Positions 83 to 46,395 of a DNA stretch of 48,215 bases are shown here, one piece after another; positions within the stretch are counted from its first letter, which is position 1, and the number at the start of each line of letters is the position of its first letter. Source of the stretch: Elusimicrobiales bacterium (lineage in GTDB: Bacteria > Elusimicrobiota > Elusimicrobia > Elusimicrobiales > UBA9959); NCBI GenBank assembly GCA_023701245.1, contig JAMPXK010000013.1, forward strand, positions 1-48,215, in the 5' to 3' direction. The position numbers and the translations under genes were made by a program. A model generated the notes under the pieces. The model saw nothing but the letters and a program-made list of their open reading frames with translations. It did not search any database and was not told the DNA's origin.

Positions 83-1240
83 CTACTTAAGTTTTTCCTG
101 CCCTGAGAAGGCCCTGTCCAGTTTGAACCCGGCCAGGACCTCGCGGTCCTCGGCGGAGGGGGCGCCGGCGATGTGGGCCGCTATGGCCTCTCCCAGGCCG
201 GGGCCCAGCATGAAGCCCTGCCCGCACATGCCCACCGCCAGGACATAACCCTTTAGGGCGGAGGGGAGATCCACCACCGGGAAGCCGTCCGGGGTCATGG
301 GGTAGAGGCCGCGCCAGGTGCGGCGCACCTTGAGGTTGGCCAGGCCGGGCATCAGCGAGATCATGCGGCGCGAGATTTCGGGCAGGAACTCGGAGGTGGA
401 ACGGCGGTCGTGGCCCCAGATGGGCGGCTGCGGCGTGAGGCAGAACACGATCTGGCCTTCCCAGTTCTGGTAGAAGTAATAGTTCTTGGATTTGTCGCCC
501 GGGCGGATATCCACCACCATCGGTTCGAAGAACCGTTGGGCCGGCTCGGTGATGCCGGCTTCGTGGCAGTCGGGTTTGACCGGCACTTTCACTCCGGCCA
601 GCTCCGACACGGCGGCAGCTTCGGCGCCGGCGGCGTTGACCACCCAGCCCGCGTAATAGCGGCCCTGCGGCGTCAGCACGCCTTTTACCGCGCCGCCTTC
701 GGAAATTATCTCTTTAACCGGTTCCTTGAAACGGAACTCGGCGCCCAGCTTAACCGCCTGCCGGTAGAAAGCGTTGATGGAAAGCAGGGGGGAGGCGGAG
801 CCGTCGCCGGGCGACCAGGTGCCGCCGCGCAGGTCCTTCTCCGCTATCCCGGGCACCAGGGCCCGCACCTTTTCCGGGCCCACCCAGTCTATATCCAGGC
901 CGAACCCCTTCTGCACCTTCAGGAGTTCGCGCAGGACGCGCTCGTCGTTCTCGGTATAGACCGGGAACAGGTAGCCGCCCTTTATCCAGCCTATGTCGTC
1001 GCCGTGCTTCTTCTCCCAGGTGGAGAAGACTTCCAGGCTGCGCAGGCAGGCCTTGATCTTGGAGCCGTCCGAATGGGTGGCCCGCACGCCGCCGATGGCG
1101 CATTTGTTCTGGCCCTGGCCGGGAGAGGCCGCGGCTTCCAGCACCAGGGTTTTGAGCTTGCGGCCGGCCAGCGACATGGCCAGCGGGACGCCGATGCTGC
1201 CCGCGCCTATTATGATGACATCGTAATTATTTTGGGCCAT
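83..1240 (-). CDS. FAD-dependent amino-acid oxidase/dehydrogenase, DAO-family beta-type subunit
   Basis: 385 aa. The N-terminus is a Rossmann FAD-binding motif (VIIIGAGSIGVPLA, residues 9-22), followed by the DAO-fold substrate domain and a C-terminal flavin motif (GMCGQGFMLGPGLGEAIA). It resembles the beta subunits of heterotetrameric sarcosine oxidase, HcnC and the archaeal PDH1 proline dehydrogenase; size and fold fit that family. These enzymes oxidise secondary or primary amines of amino acids such as sarcosine, proline, glycine or opines. The start follows AAGGAACCT and lies 7 bp after the stop of the upstream multi-cofactor gene, so the two are co-transcribed and probably form one complex. 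The substrate cannot be read from the sequence. Confidence 0.85.
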   Translation of the reverse strand: MAQNNYDVIIIGAGSIGVPLAMSLAGRKLKTLVLEAAASPGQGQNKCAIGGVRATHSDGSKIKACLRSLEVFSTWEKKHGDDIGWIKGGYLFPVYTENDERVLRELLKVQKGFGLDIDWVGPEKVRALVPGIAEKDLRGGTWSPGDGSASPLLSINAFYRQAVKLGAEFRFKEPVKEIISEGGAVKGVLTPQGRYYAGWVVNAAGAEAAAVSELAGVKVPVKPDCHEAGITEPAQRFFEPMVVDIRPGDKSKNYYFYQNWEGQIVFCLTPQPPIWGHDRRSTSEFLPEISRRMISLMPGLANLKVRRTWRGLYPMTPDGFPVVDLPSALKGYVLAVGMCGQGFMLGPGLGEAIAAHIAGAPSAEDREVLAGFKLDRAFSGQEKLK

Positions 1241-1247
1241 AGGTTCC

Positions 1248-3344
1248 TTAGAAATTGCTCCAGCTGGCCTTTTCGTCGGCCTCGGTCTGGCACTTTACGC
1301 CGGAGAAGACGCCCAGGGGCGCTTCCACGAAAAGGGGCCGCCGGGTGAAGGCCGTGACCTCTTTGAGGTCTACGCCTTCGCTCCTGAAGATGTTGAGGAG
1401 CATCGCCGAGCAGGTCTTGGAGCCGCAGGCGCCCATGCCGGCGCGCGTGACGGCCTTGAGCTGGTTGAGGTCGCGCATGCCGGCGCGGATGGCCCGGCGG
1501 ATCTCGCCCAGGCTGACGCGCTCGCAGCGGCAGATTATGGTTTCATCTTCGGCCCTGGACAGGTCGGCGGGGGACCTCACGCCTTCCTCCGCGGGATAGA
1601 GCCGCAAGGAGGCCGCGAGGTCCGCCTTTTCGGGAGTGGTCTTCGCGATCACTATCAGGGTGTTCTCGGCCTTGAAGTCCTTTACGTCCGTCACCTCGGC
1701 GTCGCCCAGGTCCGCGCCTTCCCAGCCGGTGAGGCGCACCTTGTCGCCCTTTTTCACCAGGCCGCGGCCTATCTCGAAAGGCAGCGCCACGGTGGGGTTG
1801 GCCTTGTCCTTGCGGTAGTCCACGATGGTCACCGCGAGGCCGGGGCAGATGAGCAGGCACTTGAAGCAGCCTATGCAGTCGCCGGCGAACTTGGGCGTGT
1901 TCATAATGCTCTCGCCGGAGAGCTTGATGGATTTCTTGGGGCAGACGGTCACGCAGGGGTTGCAGGGGATCTCCTGGCGGCAGTGCAGCACCGGGTAGAC
2001 GGGTTTGTCGTGGTCTTTCTGCGCCGGGGCCTTGGTGACGCCGGGGCGGGACTTGAGCACTTCCAGCCGGTCGAACCAGAACTCCGGCACCGGCGCGGCC
2101 ATTACGCCCAGCGACTTGAGCACCTTGTGCGCCGTGATCTTGCCGCTGAACATGGCGGCGGAGGCTTCGGCTATCTCCTCGGCGTCGCCGCAGACGAAGG
2201 AGTCCATGCCGGCCTCGCGGGCCTGGGCGTGGAATTCGTCCACGGAGGAAAGGCCCACCGCTATCAGCAGCGTGTCGGCCTGGAAAGTCTTTTCGGTGCC
2301 CGGCAGGGGCCGGAACTTCTCGTCCACGCCGGCTATGGTCACGCTCTCCAGGCCCTCTTTGCCGTCCGCGCGCAGGATAGTGTGGCGCGTGTAGACCGGG
2401 ATGCCCAGGCGCTTGATCTTGTCCTCGTGCACTTTGTAGCCGCCGCAGGCCGCCTGCGCCTCTATCAGGCCCACTACCTTGATGCCGGCCTGCGCCGCGT
2501 GGTAGGCCGCTATCAGGCCCACGTTGCCGCCGCCCACGATGAACAGGCGCTTGGCCGGCCGTACCAGGTCGCGGTTCACCAGCGTCTGGAAAGCGCCGGC
2601 GCCGTAGACGCCCGGCAGGGTGTTGCCCGGGAAAGCCAGGGACTTCTCCCTGGCCCCGGTGGCGCTGATGATGGCCTTGGGGCGCACGAGGCAATACTTG
2701 TCGCCGCGCAGCACGCCCGCCTTCCTGTCGGAAAAGACCGCCAGGCAGGTGGCGTCCTTCCAGGTCTTAACGGAGGGGTATTCCTTGAGCTGCTCTTCCA
2801 GTTTTTCCGCGATATCGATGCCGCGGGTGCCGGCGTAGCAGTCTTCCACCGAACCGAAGAATTTGTGCGTCTGCAGCACCAGTTTGCCGCCGAAGCGGGC
2901 TTTGTCGTCTATGATAAGGGTGTTGACGCCGAGTTTGCCGAGCTCGGCCGCCGCGGCCAGCCCGGACGGGCCGCCGCCGATTATAAGGGCGTCCACGTCC
3001 AGCTCTTCCACGCGGCCGAATTCCTGCACGCAGGCCACGCGGGGCAGGCGGGCGGCGCCCTTGAGCGTCTCCACCTTCAAGCCTTCCCTGACGGGAGTGA
3101 TGCAGGATTTTACGGTCAGACCGTCGGCTATCACCGAGCACTGCGCGCACTGCCCGTTGGCGCAGAAAATACCCTGGGGGCCGTCGTCCTTCTTATGGCG
3201 GCTGAAGATCTTTATGCCGTTGGCGTAAAGCGCGCTGGAGATAACCTCGCCCTCCAGGGCAAGACAGGGCTTGCCGTCGAAAGTGAAAGCCACCTGCTTC
3301 CTTTCTTCGGGCTGCAGTACGGGGTGTTCTGTTATTCTTTCCAT
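1248..3344 (-). CDS. fused 2Fe-2S / FAD-NAD(P) / 4Fe-4S / BFD electron-transfer subunit of an amino-acid dehydrogenase
   Basis: 698 aa from the ATG at 3344. I prefer that start to the in-frame GTG at 3380 because CGAGGA lies 4-5 nt upstream of it. Domain order: ferredoxin-like 2Fe-2S (C61, C66, C69, C81, the HcnA/sarcosine-oxidase alpha type); FAD motif GGGPSG near residue 123; NAD-type motif GGGNVG near 271; two 4Fe-4S clusters (C455, C461, C464, C468 and C490, C493, C496, C500); C-terminal BFD-like 2Fe-2S (C605, C607, C640, C645). In related complexes these modules are separate subunits (HcnA/HcnB; PDH1 alpha/gamma/delta). Here they form one chain, which would carry electrons from the DAO-type subunit encoded 7 bp downstream to a pyridine nucleotide or another carrier. 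The electron acceptor and the amino-acid substrate are unknown. Confidence 0.85.
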   Translation of the reverse strand: MERITEHPVLQPEERKQVAFTFDGKPCLALEGEVISSALYANGIKIFSRHKKDDGPQGIFCANGQCAQCSVIADGLTVKSCITPVREGLKVETLKGAARLPRVACVQEFGRVEELDVDALIIGGGPSGLAAAAELGKLGVNTLIIDDKARFGGKLVLQTHKFFGSVEDCYAGTRGIDIAEKLEEQLKEYPSVKTWKDATCLAVFSDRKAGVLRGDKYCLVRPKAIISATGAREKSLAFPGNTLPGVYGAGAFQTLVNRDLVRPAKRLFIVGGGNVGLIAAYHAAQAGIKVVGLIEAQAACGGYKVHEDKIKRLGIPVYTRHTILRADGKEGLESVTIAGVDEKFRPLPGTEKTFQADTLLIAVGLSSVDEFHAQAREAGMDSFVCGDAEEIAEASAAMFSGKITAHKVLKSLGVMAAPVPEFWFDRLEVLKSRPGVTKAPAQKDHDKPVYPVLHCRQEIPCNPCVTVCPKKSIKLSGESIMNTPKFAGDCIGCFKCLLICPGLAVTIVDYRKDKANPTVALPFEIGRGLVKKGDKVRLTGWEGADLGDAEVTDVKDFKAENTLIVIAKTTPEKADLAASLRLYPAEEGVRSPADLSRAEDETIICRCERVSLGEIRRAIRAGMRDLNQLKAVTRAGMGACGSKTCSAMLLNIFRSEGVDLKEVTAFTRRPLFVEAPLGVFSGVKCQTEADEKASWSNF

Positions 3345-3383
3345 GGGATCCTCGCTGGCGAACCGGCCTGAAAGCGTCACAAT

Positions 3384-44259: not shown

Positions 44260-44805
44260 TTAAACCTTTTTGCCCTGCTCCTCCTGCCGCGCTTTCGCTT
44301 TCTCGACTTTTTGTTTGCAGCCGTCCGAGAGTTTGCCGGCGTTCTTGAGCAGGCAGTCGCGTACGCGGCCCTCGCCCGGCTTTATCCCGGCGCAGAGTTT
44401 CTGCGCGTCCTCCGCGCAGACCTTGCCCGCCTCTTTGTTCCTCTTGCCCCGGCCTTCGGCGCGGCCCGTTTTGCCCCGCATCTTGAAGCCGCGTTTGAAG
44501 CCGGAGGCGAAACCCTGCCCGTATTCACGCATGCAGGTCCCGCTGGCGCCGCGCCCTTTTTCCCAGCCTTTATTTTCGCCGCGGCGCTCTTTGGCCAGCG
44601 CCTTGCGGTCCCGGCAGGCCTGGGAGAGGTCCTTTTCGTGTTCCTTAAGGCAGGCGGCCACGCGGCCTTCGCCCGGCTTCACGTCCTTGCAGAACCTGGC
44701 CGCGTCCGCGGCGCAGGGGCCGCTGCGCTCCGCGGCGGCAGGCAGCGCGCTTGCCAGCCCCAGGCCCGCGCCTAAAACCATCACCAGCAGTGTTTGTTCT
44801 TTCAT
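44260..44805 (-). CDS. exported protein with two GLG1-like Cys-rich repeats
   Basis: 181 aa. Signal peptide (to about residue 25, PAAAE), then two copies of a Cys pattern C-x-D-x4-C-x-x-(V/I)-K-P-G-E-G-R-V-x-x-C-L-x9-S-x-x-C, residues about 31-64 and 129-162. This matches the Cys-rich GLG1/FGF-receptor repeat (PF00839), best known from the eukaryotic Golgi protein GLG1 and found in some bacteria. The middle (about 70-125) is Lys/Arg/Gly-rich. The repeats are likely disulphide bonded outside the cytosol. Function in bacteria is unknown. Confidence 0.72.
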   Translation of the reverse strand: MKEQTLLVMVLGAGLGLASALPAAAERSGPCAADAARFCKDVKPGEGRVAACLKEHEKDLSQACRDRKALAKERRGENKGWEKGRGASGTCMREYGQGFASGFKRGFKMRGKTGRAEGRGKRNKEAGKVCAEDAQKLCAGIKPGEGRVRDCLLKNAGKLSDGCKQKVEKAKARQEEQGKKV

Positions 44806-44862: not shown

Positions 44863-45219
44863 TCAGGGCAGGTCTACGTAGATCGCCCCGTCCCGCAGGA
44901 CCACCGGCCAGGTCTTGAGGCCGCGGGTCTTAAGGGCGGGATCTTCGGGGTCGGGGTGGACGCTGGCGGGGGCCTTGGGAACCGGTCCGCTCAGGGCTTC
45001 GCCGCTGCGGATGTCGAATTGCGCGTAATGCAGCGGGCAGGTGAGGATCCAGCCGGTCAGTGCGCCGCGCTCCAGATGGGCGTTGGCGTGGCCGCAGGCG
45101 CGCTCCACGGCGTAAAAAGTTCCCTCGTAATTGCAGAGGACCAGGCTATGCCCGCCAAGTACGGCGGCTTTCATGCCGCCGGGGGCTATCTCGTCTATTG
45201 CCGCGGCTTTTGTCAGCAT
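44863..45219 (-). CDS. Rieske-type ferredoxin (second copy of the operon)
   Basis: 118 aa. Rieske 2Fe-2S ligands Cys42-x-His44 (ACGHANAH) and Cys61-x2-His64 (TCPLHYAQFD). It lacks the extra disulphide pair of the first Rieske protein, so it is a ferredoxin type like those serving dioxygenases. No transmembrane or signal segment, so it acts in the cytosol. It starts 1 nt after the FTR-like stop (TGATATG), as the last gene of the operon. Possible electron donor or acceptor for the FTR-like protein. Confidence 0.88.
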   Translation of the reverse strand: MLTKAAAIDEIAPGGMKAAVLGGHSLVLCNYEGTFYAVERACGHANAHLERGALTGWILTCPLHYAQFDIRSGEALSGPVPKAPASVHPDPEDPALKTRGLKTWPVVLRDGAIYVDLP

Positions 45220-45220
45220 A

Positions 45221-45556
45221 TCAGTTCTTTTCGAACCGGGCGGGCGGTATTTGTTTTAGCGCGTCCGGGTTTGTCACGTCCTTGTGCACGAACAGCCCGC
45301 ACCAGCAGCGGCGCATGGCGTCGTAGTGTTCGCGGTGGAAGGGGATGCAGGGGCAGACTATCTTCATGTTCTCGGCGCGGTCTTTGGACCGGGCCTGGCA
45401 GGGACAGTACGGCGCGCCGTATTGGGCCTCCAGCAGGGCCTCCTGCTCCAGCAGGAAGTCCGCGTCCTCTTCGTTGGGCGTGAACTTGTACCCCAGCTTT
45501 TCCGCCAGCGGGGCGAAAAGGTAGCGCAGGGCTTTTTTGCGCGGCTCGGCGGTCAC
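45221..45556 (-). CDS. ferredoxin-thioredoxin reductase catalytic-chain-like protein
   Basis: 111 aa from a GTG at 45556 that overlaps the glutaredoxin stop (GTGA). The FtrB signature is present as C51-P-C53, 14 residues, C68-P-C70, 13 residues, C84-W-C86; plant-type FTR has CPC-x16-CPC-x8-CHC. Thus all six Cys that hold the 4Fe-4S cluster and redox disulphide are there, with changed spacings and Trp in the last motif. FTRs reduce a thioredoxin-like disulphide with electrons from ferredoxin; here the neighbouring glutaredoxin and Rieske proteins are natural candidates. Confidence 0.85.
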   Translation of the reverse strand: MTAEPRKKALRYLFAPLAEKLGYKFTPNEEDADFLLEQEALLEAQYGAPYCPCQARSKDRAENMKIVCPCIPFHREHYDAMRRCWCGLFVHKDVTNPDALKQIPPARFEKN

Positions 45557-45804
45557 TTCTTCTCCAGCAGTTTCTCGAACTCGTCGGGATCGTAGCCCTG
45601 CACGCAGGCGCTCCCTATTTTGGTGAAGGGGAAGGAACCGGTGCAGCCGGCGGCGCGCATCTCCTCCATCATCTTTTCCTGCTTCTCTTGCGGCTGCTTG
45701 TCGTAGTCCACGGCCTCGAAAGGCACTTTCCTCTCCTCGAAATATTTCTTGGTCTTTTTGCACCACAGGCAGGTGGTGAGCGCGTAGACGGTTATTTTTT
45801 TCAT
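45553..45804 (-). CDS. glutaredoxin-like protein
   Basis: 83 aa. Thioredoxin fold with the redox motif TTCLWCKKTKKYF (Cys12 and Cys15), the cis-Pro region GSFPFTKIG in place of the usual TVP, and GYDPDEFEKLL. CLWC is unlike the CPYC of glutaredoxins and suggests a distinct redox potential or partner. The ATG overlaps the first Rieske gene's stop (ATGA), and the stop overlaps the FTR-like start (GTGA), so the proteins are made in fixed proportion. Confidence 0.88.
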   Translation of the reverse strand: MKKITVYALTTCLWCKKTKKYFEERKVPFEAVDYDKQPQEKQEKMMEEMRAAGCTGSFPFTKIGSACVQGYDPDEFEKLLEKK

Positions 45805-46112
45805 GATATCCCCAGGAACACTTTTTCTCCCCGCAGTTCGACGGGGTACTTCTTCAGCGCTATCTCCCCGGCGGCCAGCAGGCGGCCGTCGCGGATGTCG
45901 AAGGTCCAGTCATGGCAGGGACAGCGCAGGGAGTAACCCTCCAGTGAGCCCGACGTCAGCGGGCAGCCCATGTGGGCGCAGCGGTTCTCCAGCGCGAAGA
46001 GTTCGCCGCCGCGCCTTATCAGCAGCACGGGGAGCCCCTTCGGAAAAAAAGCCCGGGGCCGGCCGTCGGCCAGCGCCGCGAGGCTTGCGATCTCCAGCCA
46101 ATCCTGTACCAT
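45801..46112 (-). CDS. Rieske-type 2Fe-2S protein (first gene of the redox operon)
   Basis: 103 aa from the ATG at 46112; an in-frame ATG 5 codons upstream lies beyond the TATAAT spacing and is rejected. Ligands Cys45-x-His47 and Cys64-x2-His67 in RCAHMGCPL and CPCHDWTFD, with the additional Cys50/Cys66 pair seen in bc1-type and some soluble Rieske proteins. No signal or transmembrane segment. First of four coupled genes: Rieske, glutaredoxin, FTR-like, Rieske. A leaderless-type TATAAT promoter drives it. Confidence 0.88.
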   Translation of the reverse strand: MVQDWLEIASLAALADGRPRAFFPKGLPVLLIRRGGELFALENRCAHMGCPLTSGSLEGYSLRCPCHDWTFDIRDGRLLAAGEIALKKYPVELRGEKVFLGIS

Positions 46113-46124
46113 GCGGAAATTATA
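46113..46124 (-). promoter_or_regulatory. leaderless-type promoter of the redox operon
   Basis: Minus-strand TATAAT (46119-46124), TTCCGC, ATG at 46112. No Shine-Dalgarno. Confidence 0.6.
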
Positions 46125-46211
46125 CAACTTCGCGCGCGGCTCTTTTTTGCCTCAAAACTCCGCCTGGAAACCGCGCGTTGAAAATAAAGCCGGAAAAAAA
46201 TAAAAAAAGTG

Positions 46212-46240: not shown

Positions 46241-46281
46241 TCAAATCAGCGCTAAGTACTGCGCAAGGAGAACAAAGAAAA

Positions 46282-46377
46282 ATGCCTAAAGCTAAAAAGA
46301 AAGTGGCGAAGAAAGTAGCCAAAAAAAAGACGGCGAAGAAGTCCGTGAAAAAAGCGAAGAAAGGTAAAAAGAAGTAA
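46282..46377 (+). CDS. 31-residue Lys-rich protein (histone-H1-tail-like)
   Basis: 31 aa, of which 18 are Lys and most of the rest Ala, Val, Ser, Thr and Gly (begins MPKAKKKVAKKVAKKKT, ends KKGKKK). No cleavable signal peptide. Support for a real gene: consensus-like promoter, AAGGAG SD spaced 11 nt from the ATG, and a strong intrinsic terminator that begins 18 bp after the stop. Composition resembles the Lys/Ala tails of histone H1 and HU relatives, suggesting nucleic-acid binding or compaction. Too short for most gene callers. Confidence 0.75.
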   Translation: MPKAKKKVAKKVAKKKTAKKSVKKAKKGKKK

Positions 46378-46395
46378 TTCGCAAAAGAACTAGGA

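Follow-up and report, generated by a model that had tools for sequence, protein, structure and literature searches.

Electrons are known to enter enzymes of the FTR and FDR kind from plant-type ferredoxin or, in FDR, from a rubredoxin domain. Plant FTR couples a catalytic chain with the motif CPC-x16-CPC-x8-CHC to a variable chain, with the plant [2Fe-2S] ferredoxin as donor and thioredoxin as acceptor, and FDR reduces the glutaredoxin-like methanoredoxin. FTR and FDR form a class that reduces disulfides with an active-site [4Fe-4S] cluster (PMC7278568), and the word Rieske does not occur in the main text of that paper. Among titles and abstract openings in the open literature, a scope outside which the main FDR papers lie, no description of a prokaryotic unit of Rieske, FTR and glutaredoxin proteins was found, and the novelty of the unit described here is provisional.

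A four-gene redox operon

The minus strand of the window (the whole stretch of 48,215 nucleotides that was analysed) carries four co-oriented genes between positions 46112 and 44863, in the order Rieske 1, glutaredoxin-like protein, a short protein of the FTR catalytic type, and Rieske 2:

46112-45801, minus strand: Rieske 1, 103 aa, ATG start (PF00355, 63.8 bits, 1.5e-17)
45804-45553, minus strand: glutaredoxin-like protein (Grx), 83 aa (PF00462, 37.7 bits, 2.4e-9)
45556-45221, minus strand: FTR-like protein resembling the catalytic chain, predicted [4Fe-4S] disulfide reductase, 111 aa, GTG start (PF02943, 83.8 bits, 1e-23)
45219-44863, minus strand: Rieske 2, 118 aa (PF00355, 56.6 bits, 2.5e-15)

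All four proteins exceeded the Pfam gathering scores. The Rieske 1 and Grx genes overlap through ATGA and the Grx and FTR-like genes through GTGA, with TGATATG joining the FTR-like gene to Rieske 2; coordinates and Pfam matches agree with the four-gene operon and the junctions described in the first-pass annotation. A TTG codon at 46127, upstream of the ATG, is a possible alternative start for Rieske 1. Four-base overlaps were also found elsewhere in a scan of genome_contigs, at 22 of 34 loci for Rieske 1/Grx and 29 of 34 for Grx/FTR, as counted with script-picked starts.

Two further frames flank the operon. Just downstream, at 44260-44805 (minus strand), lies a Cys-rich repeat protein (PF00839) whose start appears signal-peptide-like by eye, and a frame resembling it is again found downstream of the operon at locus L076. 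Upstream, on the opposite strand (46281-46378, plus strand), is a frame for a very lysine-rich mini-protein with a composition that by eye resembles histone H1.

Recurrence and gene linkage in three phyla

PF02943 was matched in 60 of 294 Elusimicrobiota genomes, and the neighbourhood of every match was taken, giving 61 places including the window. All four genes were present in the same order in 22 genomes of the window genus and three of a sister genus (g2), and neither genus was represented among the PF02943-negative Elusimicrobiota genomes listed. The other 36 places, none with a Rieske gene, mainly held Grx beside an FTR lengthened by a C-terminal rubredoxin, along with a few aberrant forms. 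By eye, the FTRs of L055 and L057 appear to end in two tandem rubredoxin repeats, and genome G079 has a second, apparently decaying FTR copy (L061:661-1101) with an incomplete CxC pattern and an adjoining Grx-like frame.

The genome_contigs scan, in which eight FTRs of the Rieske-linked subtype served as queries, returned 34 loci. Their titles named Elusimicrobia, Elusimicrobiales or Elusimicrobiota in 27 cases, 'bacterium' in five, and Bacillota and Methanomassiliicoccales in one each. The archaeal locus (L123) has the four genes ordered as in the window, the Bacillota locus (L122) has Rieske 1, Grx and FTR, and the remaining 32 loci, of Elusimicrobiota type and largely from the same genomes as the phylum survey, have four genes each. 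Pattern matching against viral contigs gave 28 stretches with no relative among them, and plasmids gave no match.

The phyla of L123 and L122 were surveyed in 292 Thermoplasmatota and 299 Bacillota-phylum genomes, of which 58 and 15, respectively, contained FTR-like matches. The Rieske-linked subtype was separated from the other FTR-like matches of these two surveys by a clear gap in score (at least 154.9 bits against at most 60.8). When the three phylum surveys were combined, 137 FTR places were obtained, and 46 of these had the x14/x13 spacing with CWC, 35 without rubredoxin and 11 with an N-terminal rubredoxin. Rieske 1 and Grx lay upstream of all 35 rubredoxin-free FTRs of this form (25 Elusimicrobiota, eight Bacillota-phylum and two archaeal). 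The 11 N-terminal-rubredoxin FTRs all belonged to Thermoplasmatota (L189, L132, L137, L138, L146, L150, L156, L193, L199, L200 and L216) and had neither a Grx gene closer than 1.5 kb nor a Rieske gene closer than 2 kb. At 77 places x14/x12 spacing and CYC or CFC accompanied a C-terminal rubredoxin, with Grx within 1.5 kb of the FTR in 74 and a Rieske gene beside none.

Fused rubredoxin was called by pattern, with which PF21349 agreed in 77 of 77 C-terminal and 11 of 11 N-terminal cases, and it was present at 88 of the 102 FTR places other than the 35. No Rieske gene was found within 2 kb at any of these 102 places, the flank being shorter than 2 kb on one side in 66 and shorter than 1 kb in 15. 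Neither carrier, rubredoxin or Rieske, was seen at 14 of the 137 places, which comprise four short CHC forms, two with an unreadable motif and eight others and include several contig ends; carrier partners are thus not a universal feature. The short CHC FTRs, at L062, L063, L066 and L185 in Elusimicrobiota and the Bacillota phylum, had no Grx, Rieske or rubredoxin in the stretch examined.

The association of FTR, Rieske and Grx that the first-pass annotation proposed to look for across genomes is therefore not confined to the window contig, and a dedicated unit of Rieske, FTR-like protein and Grx, found at 35 of 35 loci in three phyla, is strongly supported. The gene order of the window was kept in the other two phyla, whose FTRs are 53-63% identical to that of the window. 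The records named here are metagenome-assembled genomes, which would leave room for an assembly or binning artefact or a chance neighbourhood; the same order was found in dozens of assemblies, and in the archaeal genome G463 the operon lies inside a contig of 1,818,080 bases that also carries an N-terminal-rubredoxin FTR. Chance and artefact were ruled out on this ground, and what probability they retain is negligible. Of the two Rieske proteins, both of which had been placed in the relay by the earlier reading, Rieske 1 is present at all 35 loci, but Rieske 2 is not a core member, as it was found in 27 operons and was missing from all eight of Bacillota.

Features of the operon proteins

With 83.8 bits against a cut-off of 22, the FTR-like protein belongs to the FTR catalytic chain family, and it is the sole PF02943 match in the source genome bin (92.8% complete). 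Its cysteines C51, C53, C68, C70, C84 and C86 form the motif CPC-x14-CPC-x13-CWC. All six cluster and disulfide cysteines claimed earlier are thus present by motif, and the three CxC pairs were invariant in 18 of 18 rows of an alignment of the subtype (A3). The closest solved chains are 4tpu, which we take to be the FDR of Methanosarcina acetivorans, and 7pwe. Pfam found no rubredoxin domain in the FTR-like protein, the rubredoxin pattern was missing from all 35 Rieske-linked FTRs, and no FTR variable (alpha) chain was present among the nine window proteins scanned with Pfam.

Both gaps had been called altered, and the last pair had been described as CWC in place of CHC. The second gap does set the Rieske-linked FTRs apart, being 13 residues long against 12 in their C-terminal-rubredoxin kin, but the first gap is ordinary, since x14 was found at 135 of 137 places and the remaining two had no readable motif. 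Likewise CWC (C84, C86) was borne out, whereas CHC is not the norm from which it departs: CHC was found at four of 137 places, and CYC or CFC occupies this position in the C-terminal-rubredoxin kin. Further subtype residues are the Ile, Pro and His of C-P-C-I-P-x-H at the second pair, present in 35 of 35 Rieske-linked FTRs at positions where the rubredoxin types most often have another residue or a gap, and a Gln instead of Arg that follows the first CPC in 33 of 35.

Grx has the active site CLWC (C12, C15), as had been noted for the window. The sequence between the cysteines is not conserved, with CPWC, CYHC, CFHC and CFYC in other operons, which leaves CxxC alone as the common feature. The closest solved chains are the glutaredoxins 3nzn, 5cax and 3ic4, followed by residues 4-77 of 7pwe. 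The latter chain is named ferredoxin-thioredoxin reductase subunit B, and its residues 101-174 match the window FTR.

Both Rieske proteins carry the [2Fe-2S] motif C-x-H ... C-x-x-H, with the ligands assigned by motif as C45, H47, C64 and H67 in Rieske 1 and C42, H44, C61 and H64 in Rieske 2. Among solved chains both are nearest by sequence to dioxygenase ferredoxins (2qpz, 1fqt and others), Rieske 2 having phmmer matches to 2qpz and other ferredoxins of ring-hydroxylating dioxygenases, and both score under the NCBIfam cut-offs. In Rieske 1, residues C45, H47, G49, C50, C64, P65, C66, H67, D68 and W69 were invariant in 14 of 14 rows of alignment A5 and at least 97% conserved in the 35 operons. 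Its motif D-W-x-F stands where bc1-type Rieske proteins have the potential-raising G-S-x-Y, and by general structure-function rules this replacement would point to a low potential.

The conserved residues of Rieske 1 include an additional cysteine pair, C50/C66, which occupies the position of the loop disulfide of bc1-type Rieske proteins. This pair could itself be the substrate, with the FTR-like protein and Grx serving Rieske 1 as a thiol switch or repair unit for the carrier. Although the near-complete conservation of C50/C66 and its absence from Rieske 2 would suit such a role, in other Rieske proteins such a pair forms a structural disulfide, and a role as substrate would not account for the swap of Rieske and rubredoxin between sister enzymes. 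We consider this role very unlikely.

Rieske census and genome-wide redox context

Across the 294 Elusimicrobiota genomes, PF00355 was matched in 74 and PF02943 in 60, and the 25 with both are exactly the operon genomes. Each of the 25 has two Rieske matches, both inside the operon, and the 35 Elusimicrobiota genomes with other FTRs had no PF00355 match. A Rieske 1 profile scored at least 147 bits in eight of 299 Bacillota-phylum and two of 292 Thermoplasmatota genomes, the same genomes as contain the FTR subtype, while the next scores, in other genomes, were 88.7 and 73.5 bits, respectively; nine of those ten members had been used to build the profile, so the high scores are partly built in, but the absence of further members is not.

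Eighteen genomes were chosen for a wider inspection, namely 16 operon genomes of the three phyla (six of Elusimicrobiota) and the rubredoxin-type relatives G086 and G045. Rieske matches were present in all 16 operon genomes and in neither relative, and one Rieske gene beyond the operon was found in four of the 16 (the archaeal G463 and G821, plus G672 and G739). PF14759, a domain of the reductases from which Rieske ferredoxins usually receive electrons, was matched in none of the 18 genomes and in three of 14 control genomes, and a reductase of this family was accordingly rejected as the Rieske donor. Thioredoxin reductase (TIGR01292) scored above its cut-off in 16 of the 18, the two exceptions being archaea, so the relay is not the sole disulfide-reducing route and runs beside other systems.

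When the neighbours at 25 of the 35 operon loci were clustered, none of the best 40 clusters spanned all three phyla apart from the operon genes and their shadow frames. A cluster common to the Elusimicrobiota and Bacillota loci was set aside, consisting by eye of two-component signalling proteins with promiscuous domains. At 83-3380 (minus strand) of the window, 41 kb from the operon, a gene of the DAO family is paired with one for a Fer2_4/FAD/BFD oxidoreductase of 710 aa. The three g2 loci seem to have this pair downstream of the operon, adjoining it in L079 and L084 and one gene further in L076, as judged with Pfam for the window pair and the large L076 protein. The Rieske-less G086 and G045 have a thioredoxin-reductase-like match in frames about as long as the g2 downstream gene. 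As this FAD/2Fe-2S oxidoreductase neighbours the operon only in the three g2 loci and similar frames occur in Rieske-less genomes, a role as dedicated Rieske donor is a lead only.

These data bear on whether the Rieske proteins supply some other enzyme, an oxygenase or another oxidoreductase, and are merely co-expressed with the Grx/FTR pair. Their resemblance to dioxygenase ferredoxins, albeit at scores below the NCBIfam cut-offs, is what such a role would lead one to expect, as is the large oxidoreductase with its DAO-like neighbour downstream in the three g2 loci. Against it, the 25 Elusimicrobiota operon genomes, although incomplete bins, hold no third Rieske gene and hence no Rieske oxygenase, so that a donor role for an oxygenase is ruled out by the census in these hosts; the PF14759 reductase is missing from all 18 genomes; frames comparable to the g2 gene exist where there is no Rieske gene to serve; and in the Bacillota-phylum and Thermoplasmatota surveys Rieske 1 at or above 147 bits never occurred without this FTR subtype. 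Supply of another enzyme is accordingly improbable.

Phylogeny and probable transfer of the unit

The FTR tree comprised 134 rows; left out were two places whose motif was unreadable and one that was either identical or too short. The 35 Rieske-linked FTRs formed one side of a branch with support of 100/99, although with few alignment columns, a midpoint root and long branches the placement of the group is uncertain. Because the operon FTRs form one group, the 35 co-occurrences probably reflect one origin, kept and transferred, rather than 35 independent events. The archaeal L123 stood next to Elusimicrobiota (support 100/89), which suggests transfer, and Bacillota was not resolved as a single group in this tree.

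In trees of the four operon proteins, Bacillota formed one side for FTR, Rieske 1 and Grx. FTR and Grx recovered both Elusimicrobiota and Elusimicrobiota with L123, whereas Rieske 1 recovered neither, and distances of Rieske 1 and Rieske 2 outside Elusimicrobiota were uncorrelated (r = -0.03, n = 51). The conflict at the Elusimicrobiota/L123 fork and the uncorrelated distances argue against a tight unit. Transfer of the whole unit together is likely, not proven.

A proposed relay from Rieske proteins to glutaredoxin

The four co-oriented genes, the FTR subtype, the linkage in three phyla and the mutual exclusion with fused rubredoxin were computed directly, and Rieske 1 tracks the FTR subtype. 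As the Rieske genes are found where the rubredoxin domain is missing, the Rieske proteins most likely do the work of rubredoxin, that is, one-electron supply to the cluster. We therefore read the operon as encoding every part of a relay that reduces disulfides in the manner of FTR/FDR, with free Rieske proteins in the place of the rubredoxin domain, and give this reading a probability of about 0.7. The relay in the first-pass annotation holds in so far as the Rieske/FTR/Grx unit is a dedicated one, but the place it gave to the Rieske proteins has to be revised from that of plant-type ferredoxin to that of the rubredoxin domain, which 88 of the 102 other FTRs carry.

The course of electrons proposed here is predicted from sequence. 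Rieske 1, with Rieske 2 where present, would deliver electrons one at a time to the FTR-like protein, at its [4Fe-4S] cluster, the ligands of which are by homology C51, C68, C70 and C84. Two successive electrons would then open the active-site disulfide C53-C86, and thiol-disulfide exchange would hand the reduction on to the CxxC pair of Grx, the product of the adjacent gene; Grx in its reduced form may in turn reduce proteins of the cell. Grx as acceptor is the best supported of these predicted steps, given the Grx genes beside rubredoxin-type FTRs and the presence of Grx and FTR parts in 7pwe. The Rieske proteins would most likely receive their electrons from ferredoxin, a source favoured by the failure to find PF14759.

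The direction of flow depends on the potentials. Dioxygenase-type Rieske ferredoxins have a potential of about -0.15 V, above many CxxC disulfides, so reduction of CxxC would need favourable ratios or unusual potentials, and flow could run in reverse. The Grx dithiol and the FTR-like protein would then feed the Rieske proteins and through them a terminal acceptor, in thiol oxidation or redox sensing. By these potentials a dioxygenase-type Rieske protein would more readily accept electrons from a CxxC dithiol than donate them, and the D-W-x-F of Rieske 1 in place of G-S-x-Y was counted on the same side. Set against this, characterised FTR/FDR enzymes are known as reductases, Grx is common to the rubredoxin-type enzymes too, and the best 40 neighbour clusters from 25 loci included no acceptor gene shared across the three phyla. 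Reverse flow is thus unlikely, and flow from the Rieske proteins towards Grx is preferred.

A broader proposal is tentative and, in our estimate, has odds clearly below even. With the unit, the FTR superfamily may have a third branch as regards electron input, in the form of a disulfide reductase that depends on Rieske proteins. Rieske 1 would be a dedicated carrier of low potential, which the conserved C50/C66 would make a thiol switch as well as a one-electron carrier; the genes would have moved as a unit between Bacteria and Archaea, and a rubredoxin domain could be exchanged for them in the course of evolution. Rieske input to an FTR-type enzyme would give Rieske carriers a new function besides those in oxygenases, bc complexes and nitrite reductase, and would offer a natural experiment that shows which carriers of single electrons are able to power the two-electron chemistry of disulfides. 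The redox control of uncultured Elusimicrobiota would be linked with that of archaea and Bacillota through the apparent transfer of a whole operon.

Comparison with known systems

Compared with the plant and cyanobacterial FTR catalytic chain, the operon FTR shares PF02943 and the six cysteines but differs in having x14/x13 and CWC instead of x16/x8 and CHC. The dioxygenase Rieske ferredoxins resemble the operon Rieske proteins and differ in their partners, which here are Grx and FTR with no PF14759 reductase in 18 of 18 genomes; no Rieske oxygenase is available as partner either, since the source genome and the 24 other Elusimicrobiota operon genomes hold only the two operon Rieske genes.

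In 7pwe, the Grx and FTR parts lie in one chain of 196 residues, which they nearly fill, whereas the operon encodes separate proteins together with Rieske genes. The 11 Thermoplasmatota FTRs with an N-terminal rubredoxin have the same CPC-x14-CPC-x13-CWC motif as the operon, but their rubredoxin is fused and neither Grx nor Rieske lies beside them; in the midpoint-rooted tree they are on the same side as the operon FTRs, a join that may be a long-branch effect. The rubredoxin-type FDR has in common with the operon an FTR domain with CPC-x14-CPC and a third CxC pair, the aromatic residue within that last pair, and an adjacent Grx-like gene (35 of 35 operons and 74 of 77 C-terminal-rubredoxin places). 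From this FDR the operon FTR is distinguished by its lack of rubredoxin, a gap of 13 rather than 12, CWC rather than CYC or CFC, and the free Rieske proteins encoded with it.
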